Of a DNA stretch of 64,000 bases, positions 34,474 to 58,983 are shown in pieces. The notes under the pieces were generated by a model. It saw only the letters and a list, made by a program, of their open reading frames with translations. It searched no databases and was not told where the DNA came from. Within the stretch, counting starts at the first letter, position 1. Each line of letters starts with the position of its first letter. The translations under genes were made by a program, and so were the position numbers. Source of the DNA: Orlajensenia leifsoniae (GTDB lineage: Bacteria; Actinomycetota; Actinomycetes; Actinomycetales; Microbacteriaceae); NCBI RefSeq assembly GCF_004570845.1, contig NZ_SPQZ01000007.1:1-64000 (forward strand). The letters run 5' to 3'.

Positions 34474-34525
34474 CCACGACGCCCGCTGGGGCCCAGACGA
34501 AGTCCGCGGTCGAGCTCATGGGTCG

Positions 34526-34599
34526 GAGAACAGGCCCGATCGTCCGGAACAGGCCCATCTGGCCTGTAGCGGCTCGATTAGCGGATCGGGCCTGTTCTC
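34526..34599. terminator. Nested inverted repeats between convergent CDF and DedA genes
   Basis: A perfect 16-bp inverted repeat (34526-34541 with 34584-34599) encloses a smaller hairpin of 7-bp arms (34549-34555 with 34561-34567). Four copies of ACAGGCC/GGCCTGT result. Position between two gene ends suggests a bidirectional terminator, but the 42-nt loop is long. Confidence 0.6.
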
Positions 34600-34635
34600 G
34601 GAACGAGACCCGGGCAAGCGGATGCCGCGCCGAGG

Positions 34636-53827: not shown

Positions 53828-54304
53828 ATGCCGAAGGAACGCGGAGAGAACGTCGTCGCGACGAACCGGAAGGCGCGTCACGACTACCTCATCGGTGAGA
53901 CGTACGAGGCCGGGCTCGTGCTCACGGGCACCGAGGTGAAGTCGCTGCGCGCCGGTCGTGCATCGCTCGTCGACGGCTACGCCTTCATCGAGGGCGGGGA
54001 GATGTGGCTCGACGCCGTGCACATCCCCGAATACAGCCAGGGCACGTGGACGAATCACCCGCCCCGCCGCAAGCGCAAGATGCTGCTGCACAAGGCCGAG
54101 ATCATCAAGATCAGCCACAAGACGAAAGAGGGCGGCTACACGCTCGTTCCGTTGAAGATCTACTTCTCTGACGGACGGGCCAAGGTGGAGATCGCCGTGG
54201 CCAAGGGCAAGAAGGACTACGACAAGCGGCAGGCGCTGCGCGAGCGGCAGGACAAGCGCGAGTCCGATCGAGCCATCTCGAGTCGCAAGCACCTGGGGGA
54301 GTAG
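53828..54304 (+). CDS. smpB: SsrA-binding protein SmpB
   Basis: A 158-residue RNA-binding protein that delivers tmRNA to stalled ribosomes. The family pattern is visible: [29 protein letters not shown] at the start, the central [24 protein letters not shown] and the basic tail [20 protein letters not shown] needed in the decoding centre. ATG 53828 follows GGAGGAGG. The partner RNA gene ssrA lies 4.1 kb downstream. Confidence 0.95.
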
Positions 54305-58227: not shown

Positions 58228-58323
58228 GGAGGAATCCTCTCGTGCCGCGGGCGTGTCCGCGGACTCGTCATCACCCTAAGCCGACGCCGTCTCGGGGAGT
58301 AGGCGATCGCCCGAATATCGGTG

Positions 58324-58329
58324 TAGAAT
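58324..58329 (+). promoter_or_regulatory. -10 hexamer TAGAAT of the ssrA promoter
   Basis: TAGAAT lies about 115 nt before the mature tmRNA 5' end. A transcript starting near 58336 would have a leader of about 108 nt. No clear -35 element was found. Confidence 0.5.
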
Positions 58330-58332
58330 GGA

Positions 58333-58369
58333 GGGCTGCATCCGGTTCCGAACGGGGTGGATGCAGCCC
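58333..58369 (+). other. Leader hairpin upstream of ssrA
   Basis: An 11-bp perfect stem (58333-58343 with 58359-58369) with a 15-nt loop, directly at or beside the predicted transcription start. It may protect the pre-tmRNA 5' end or guide processing. Confidence 0.5.
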
Positions 58370-58376
58370 TTGGTAA

Positions 58377-58396
58377 TTCAACAGCGTGTGACAGCG
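58377..58396. repeat. Left arm of a 20-bp perfect inverted repeat flanking ssrA
   Basis: The 20 bases at 58377-58396 are the exact reverse complement of 58824-58843. This arm lies 47 nt before the mature tmRNA 5' end. The pairing ends at both sides, so it is exactly 20 bp. Confidence 0.9.
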
Positions 58397-58443
58397 GCCC
58401 ACTCAGTGCGACCGACCTCTCGGGGCCGGAAGCGAGTGCTCAT

Positions 58444-58815
58444 GGGGATGATCGGTTTCGACATTGCCTGTGAGACTGTGAGAAGCGGGCCGAGGATCCA
58501 GGGTTATCTCGTAAACGATCTCTGGAAAACACAAGTGCCAATTCAAAGCGCACTGACTTCGCTCTCGCTGCCTAGGCAGTAGAGCCCATAAGTCCGTCAG
58601 ACCGGGCCAGACCTCGCCCCGGACCCTGACGTCATCTAGAGGACTGGCTGCGTATCGACGCCTCGAGCGATACGTGGGACTTGCACTCGGGCTGGGCCCG
58701 TCCACCTAGACGCCTGTGGCAAAGGTGGGGGCCGAGTAGAACGACTTCGCAGGATACGCCCGTAGAAGGCATGGAATCTCAGCAGTGGACCCGGGTTCAA
58801 TTCCCGGCATCTCCA
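58444..58815 (+). ncRNA. ssrA: Transfer-messenger RNA (tmRNA)
   Basis: The 5' end GGGGATGATCGGTTTCGACA and the 3' end with T-arm GGTTCAATTCC and CATCTCC form the tRNA-Ala-like domain: GGGGATG pairs with CATCTCC (58808-58814, one G-T wobble), with discriminator A at 58815. The mRNA-like part starts at the GCC at 58537 and encodes the tag ANSKRTDFALAA before TAG at 58573, a typical actinobacterial tag. CCA is not encoded (CC then T follow). tmRNA with SmpB rescues ribosomes on broken mRNAs and marks their products for proteolysis. Length is 372 nt, as usual. Confidence 0.96.
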
Positions 58816-58823
58816 CCTCTGGT

Positions 58824-58843
58824 CGCTGTCACACGCTGTTGAA
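58824..58843. repeat. Right arm of the 20-bp inverted repeat flanking ssrA
   Basis: Exact reverse complement of 58377-58396. It begins 8 nt after the tmRNA discriminator base. Confidence 0.9.
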
Positions 58844-58983
58844 CCCGTGTCTCAGCCGGCGGCATCCGCGGCTCTACACGATGCCGCCCGTGAAAGCGAT
58901 CCCTTCCCCCTGGACGACTGCCGAGCCTAGGCTCGATGAGCAGACACCGGACATCCCGGTGCGCAGATTCAGATGGGGGCATC

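Follow-up and report, generated by a model that had tools for sequence, protein, structure and literature searches.

The ssrA gene of Orlajensenia leifsoniae is enclosed by a long inverted repeat that is an RNA helix and not a DNA element, its two arms having been kept complementary by extensive compensatory change in related genomes. The repeat is probably the leader-trailer helix of pre-tmRNA, equipped with a box of the kind found in rRNA (rrn) leaders and serving for release of the precursor by RNase III before RNase P acts. The gene product, tmRNA, is the RNA that rescues stuck ribosomes, and the usual account of its maturation consists of tRNA-like steps, namely RNase P cleavage at the 5' end and trimming at the 3' end. 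A covarying stalk with the box and the pairing of the 16S stalk would tie this ribosome rescue RNA to the pathway of ribosome production, and it suggests a common transcription-and-cutting route for tmRNA and 16S rRNA that has apparently not been described previously for tmRNA.

The window, that is, the whole stretch of 64,000 nucleotides that was analysed, contains the following features of the locus, some of them predicted:

53828 to 54304, forward strand: smpB, the protein partner of tmRNA (open reading frame), about 4.1 kb upstream of ssrA
58324 to 58329, forward strand: putative -10 element TAGAAT of the ssrA promoter, a pattern conserved in relatives
58333 to 58369, forward strand: 5'-terminal hairpin GGGCUGCAUCC...GGAUGCAGCCC, an inverted repeat with a fold of -27.2 kcal/mol
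58370 to 58386, forward strand: rrn-type leader box TTGGTAATTCAACAGCG, matching TTGAGAACTCAACAGCG in the genome's own 16S rRNA leader
58377 to 58399, forward strand: 5' arm of the stalk, pairing with 58821-58843
58400 to 58438, forward strand: hairpin in the interval that separates the stalk from the RNase P site, with a fold of -14.8 kcal/mol
58444 to 58817, forward strand: ssrA (tmRNA), called by ARAGORN, with tag ANSKRTDFALAA and only ACC of the terminal ACCA encoded
58821 to 58843, forward strand: 3' arm of the stalk, pairing with 58377-58399
58858 to 58888, forward strand: hairpin GGCGGCATC...GATGCCGCC, from sequence and fold a possible terminator lacking a T run

The stem and its covariation

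The sequence-only reading had described perfect 20-bp complements at 58377-58396 and 58824-58843, and these proved exact. The stem grows by three pairs inward to 23 bp (22 Watson-Crick pairs and one G.U), so that its inner 5' edge lies 44 nt upstream of tmRNA, its 3' arm lies 3 nt past the end called by ARAGORN, and the arms enclose a loop of 421 nt. For the 20-bp core, the earlier spacing of 47 nt upstream of tmRNA stands, while the downstream spacing is 6 nt and not the 8 nt first given. Rfam family RF00023 places the gene at 58444-58818 with 149.5 bits. At 58815-58818 the window's ssrA reads ACC followed by T, without ACCA, and the last A must therefore come after transcription; the relative Leifsonia sp. 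Leaf264 encodes CCA. The SmpB proteins of these two genomes are identical, which marks the window's genome as Leifsonia-like within the Microbacteriaceae. Between smpB and ssrA, which lie on the same strand, are phosphatase-like, TetR-like and transporter-like genes and one reverse-strand gene, all named from reading the translations of open reading frames only.

Throughout the window, only three inverted repeats of at least 18 nt occur within a spacing of 1.5 kb, and the ssrA stalk is the longest of them; another, of 19 nt with a loop of 42 nt, lies at 34523-34602. When the flanks (200 nt upstream against 100 nt downstream) were shuffled 600 times with dinucleotide composition preserved, the longest perfect complement reached a maximum of 15, as against the 20 observed. 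Folding of the precursor, which the sequence-only reading had proposed as a check, gives z = -4.36 for 58320-58860, and in the fold of 58333-58905 the pair probabilities of the stem are about 1 nearly throughout, with a lower value of 0.41 for the outermost pair. In the single-sequence fold the stalk forms and the tmRNA acceptor stem does not, which is to be expected for a pseudoknotted RNA. The stem was also considered as an intrinsic terminator and rejected, given its 421-nt loop and lack of a T run; consensus scans for promoters and terminators found none.

About 350 tmRNA genes with their flanks were collected from the family, the order and the class, together with named genomes around smpB; a genus-level sample of four genomes was too small. 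Flanks were compared by a strict helix score, with 130 nt upstream set against 60 nt downstream and judged by the 99% level of shuffled flanks. This score replaced unrestricted duplex folding and a permissive local helix search, both of which returned long gapped artefacts. The stalk occurs throughout the Microbacteriaceae, a family of soil and plant bacteria, and exceeds the 99% level in 136 of 181 distinct ssrA flanks; by the same score the other 45 have no clear stalk. In the stalk-bearing flanks the commonest start of the 3' arm is 3-4 nt past the end of tmRNA, and the distance from the end of the 5' arm to tmRNA is mostly 6 to about 60 nt. The typical stem is 18-24 bp long and little interrupted, within an overall range of about 10 to more than 30 bp, and in Leifsonia sp. 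Leaf264 all 23 of 23 stalk pairs are formed. Where the gap between stalk and tmRNA is at least 19 nt, it holds a hairpin of its own in 92 of 95 relatives, as it does in the window.

Among 51 unique arm pairs that share a common register, arms pair with their own partner at 97.2%, as compared to 72.1% when partners are swapped between genomes and 79.1% in the best of 2000 permutations. Changes on both sides were found at 16 of 18 arm positions, and a tree of the tmRNA bodies carries 148 compensatory events, against 1-23 in controls in which the partner was slid by 1 to 3 positions. The arm sets for the permutation and tree tests were picked by helix score, which favours pairing, and the test was therefore repeated with 5' arms picked by the leader motif only. 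In this second test, 121 of 160 arms had the 3' flank of their own genome among the best 5% of all flanks, and 125 of 160 did when only the part after the motif was used. Furthermore, de novo folding with RNAalifold of 45 precursors chosen by motif distance only recovered the leader-trailer pairs together with the acceptor stem of tmRNA. The covariation that the sequence-only reading had proposed to look for in related genomes is thus extensive, and the outcome that it had named as fatal to its idea, arms not conserved as a pair, is the opposite of what is seen. This covariation shows that the two arms pair as RNA, and a long flanking complement with compensatory change, the mark of an rrn-type leader-trailer helix, is present around ssrA.

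The leader and its box

The outer half of the 5' arm falls inside the box at 58370-58386, which is common to ssrA and 16S rRNA leaders and in the latter begins the paired leader strand; the two versions in the window's genome are identical at 14 of 17 positions. The pattern TTGRNAAYTCMAYAGNG has only three matches in that genome, at ssrA (CCTTGGTAATTCAACAGCGTG) and in two rrn-type leaders at contig ends (CCTTGAGAACTCAACAGCGTG). Across 59 genomes its matches are mostly the rrn form and ssrA leaders, with a few elsewhere (in G027, in G041 and in a tRNA array of G001), and the reversed control pattern has no match in the same 59 genomes. The box strand of related rrn operons, ACTCAACAGCGTGCA, forms a helix with TGCACGCTGTTGGGT of the 16S-23S spacer. 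The 22-nt rrn box alone reaches pairing scores of 36-38 where the 95% level of shuffled sequences is 21-24, with one tested operon in which the shuffled maximum lay above its box score. In searches with the whole leader the same helix did not rise above chance in several operons; the argument for it is therefore its corresponding position in all the operons that were examined. The earlier likening of the repeat to rRNA processing stalks gains force from this comparison, since the box that the 5' arm overlaps is the one from which relatives build their 16S leader-trailer duplex.

The ssrA box has the two properties by which an actinobacterial rrn nut site would be recognized in sequence, a match to the genome's own rrn leader and pairing with the trailer. 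The boxC RNA of Mycobacterium tuberculosis has nearly the same sequence as this box. It is our hypothesis that a Nus complex forms on the ssrA leader, with NusA binding there; the likeness of the boxes could also reflect a common processing site and not Nus binding.

Transcription of the 5' arm is predicted from the sequence upstream. In the window TAGAAT is followed by GGAGGGCTGC, from which we infer that the transcript starts at about 58333-58336. Of the 136 relatives with a stalk, 79 have a TANNNT element combined with a conserved NGARGGC start region, as against 5 of 136 shuffled upstream sequences; the motif mostly precedes, by about 44-80 nt, a point close to the inner end of the 5' arm. 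With a conserved promoter upstream of it, the 5' arm should be part of the transcript, at about 40 nt from its start, and the primary precursor should contain both arms. The 58333-58369 hairpin lies at the predicted start of the transcript, directly before the box, the place that boxB occupies in E. coli rrn leaders; it is boxB-like in position only. Starts of the form GGGCTGC, similar to that of this hairpin, recur in relatives.

Distribution of stem and box

The stem is present in the Microbacteriaceae and in one other family, a second family of the same order (f18). The box occurs in all 12 of the 12 genomes of f18, most of which have a complementary 3' flank of about 9-22 bp, with only two above the strict threshold. 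Mobilicoccus (L136) also has a stem, and in Microbacterium mostly the inner 10-13 bp are left. In most other actinobacteria examined the stem was not detected, and the ssrA flanks of nine named Streptomyces have neither stalk nor box. E. coli ssrA has no long leader-trailer stem, its best helix of 7 bp scoring 17, which is the null level.

A box of the AACTSMA type lies within 20 nt of nucleotide 1 of tmRNA in 44 of 85 genomes from other families of the order and in 18 of 47 from other orders. It usually ends at nucleotide 1, and stalk calls at threshold number just one in the other families and two in the other orders. In many families, for example at the ssrA loci L002, L295 and L366, a related box, TTGACAACTCAACA, ends exactly at nucleotide 1 or beside it and possibly makes up almost all of the 5' leader. 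Such a history is plausible in which a short leader with the box first became longer and then gained a complementary trailer. Given the stalk-less box at nucleotide 1 in many actinobacteria, the box may have another primary role. The 45 flanks without a clear stalk, together with the short stem of Microbacterium, indicate that the stalk is dispensable, and in Microbacterium it may be too short for RNase III.

The near relative G001 has a second tmRNA gene (L393, G001:C5:14000-24500) within an array in which 22 tRNA genes span about 8 kb. This second copy has no stalk, and another rrn-type box, TTGAGAACTCCACAGTG, lies near the start of the array.

Proposed maturation route and known systems

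In the route that we propose, transcription would begin near 58333, and the nascent leader would display the rrn-type, Nus-site-like box. The sequence that follows tmRNA would emerge about 430 nt later and pair with the box region and the next 13 nt to form the 23-bp stalk. RNase III would probably cut the stalk with a stagger to give a pre-tmRNA with short tails, after which RNase P would make the 5' end, and trimming and CCA repair the 3' end. By analogy with rrn operons, Nus factors bound at the box may keep the 5' arm attached to the polymerase while its partner is still to be made, and may shield the largely untranslated transcript from Rho. That RNase III releases pre-tmRNA is likely, given the presence of its gene and published reports of this design for 16S rRNA. 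An RNase III gene was found in 39 of 40 genomes, including the window's; it accompanies ssrA genes both with and without the stalk, so that there is no argument from co-occurrence and phylogeny cannot decide.

A more specific version has, in our estimate, roughly even chances of being correct. A Nus complex on the box common to ssrA and rrn would tether the 5' arm to RNA polymerase and hand it to the 3' arm for RNase III, both in the Microbacteriaceae and in the second actinobacterial family. Such a mechanism would couple the supply of tmRNA to ribosome synthesis through common factors, and the shorter, tmRNA-adjoining box of other actinobacteria would represent the ancestral state.

A genuine precursor helix might instead act mainly in other ways than as an RNase III substrate, by protecting the ends from exonucleases or by guiding the folding of the two halves of the tRNA-like domain. 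The variable length of the stem, short in Microbacterium and f18, would fit such a role, as would evidence from E. coli that the leader-trailer helix of rRNA has an importance apart from RNase III (PMC10250234). Most stems have a length and regularity that suit RNase III, however, and PMC6614801 describes the 16S counterpart of the stalk as an RNase III site; we consider this explanation unlikely. Appreciably less probable is that the 3' arm serves to sequester a Nus-type box, in attenuation or feedback and not in processing. Overlap of the box with the outer half of the 5' arm would allow this, but the pairing of the inner half, outside the box, is equally well kept, this half is the part that Microbacterium has retained, and transcription reaches the 3' arm only once all of tmRNA has been made.

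The sequence-only reading had also raised the trace of a mobile element or a recombination site, to which a DNA-binding dyad may be added. Such origins come to mind because ssrA is a common integration target (CP4-57 directly follows it in E. coli), but they are scarcely credible for a repeat that occupies one and the same position in more than 120 relatives and whose arm sequences diverge while their pairing is kept by compensatory changes. No mobile gene is enclosed; the arms surround only tmRNA and its leader at a site occupied family-wide, and they were rejected as the ends of a transposon or integrative element. A chance repeat or assembly artefact can be dismissed, given the excess over shuffled flanks and the presence of the repeat in independent genomes, including Leifsonia sp. 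Leaf264.

With an RNase III-cut leader-trailer helix as the preferred reading, several known systems invite comparison. PMC6614801, citing Beuth 2005, describes boxC of M. tuberculosis as a binding site of NusA whose pairing with the 16S-23S spacer forms an RNase III site, and gives the proposal that NusA presents the upstream strand. In another actinobacterium, P. acnes, staggered cuts were mapped in the 16S flanks (PMC3848588), and in E. coli the leader-trailer helix is essential for 30S formation (PMC10250234). RNase III also has a part in the maturation of a small stable RNA in Bacillus subtilis, the 4.5S (SRP/scRNA), according to PMC3386247; this is a different RNA in a different phylum. 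For tmRNA itself, RNase III was reported to act first on pre-10Sa RNA of E. coli, with Mn2+ present (Srivastava 1990, as cited in PMC9032294), yet E. coli ssrA is without a long leader-trailer stem, unlike that of the Microbacteriaceae. In Streptomyces venezuelae ssrA is upregulated in an rnc mutant (PMC12096830), an actinobacterial ssrA affected by RNase III, in a genus whose nine named flanks lack stalk and box. In the open-access literature we found no description of a leader-trailer helix around ssrA, or of a box that it has in common with rrn.

The ssrA leader would be an added candidate for the small list of non-rRNA Nus targets, and the locus offers a single-gene model of less than 600 nt for asking whether, in a processing helix, Nus factors pass one arm on to its partner, a matter that is hard to study on 16S rRNA. 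The closest parallel is the actinobacterial 16S processing stalk with boxA/boxC (NusA-boxC of M. tuberculosis and the rrn of P. acnes), which has the same box, AACTCAACAGCG, as ssrA. Both follow the order of promoter, box, paired strand, stable RNA and paired strand, and in both the box strand pairs with sequence beyond the stable RNA. Because the ssrA module shares its box with the 16S leader and would work alike, its origin probably lies in borrowing from rrn or in convergence with it. The ssrA stalk encloses tmRNA where the rrn stalk encloses 16S rRNA, and the ssrA transcript carries one RNA. The 3' arm starts 3 nt after tmRNA, as compared to about 165-200 nt after 16S rRNA, and the ssrA stem, unlike that of rrn, continues for 13 nt past the box as one near-perfect 23-bp helix.
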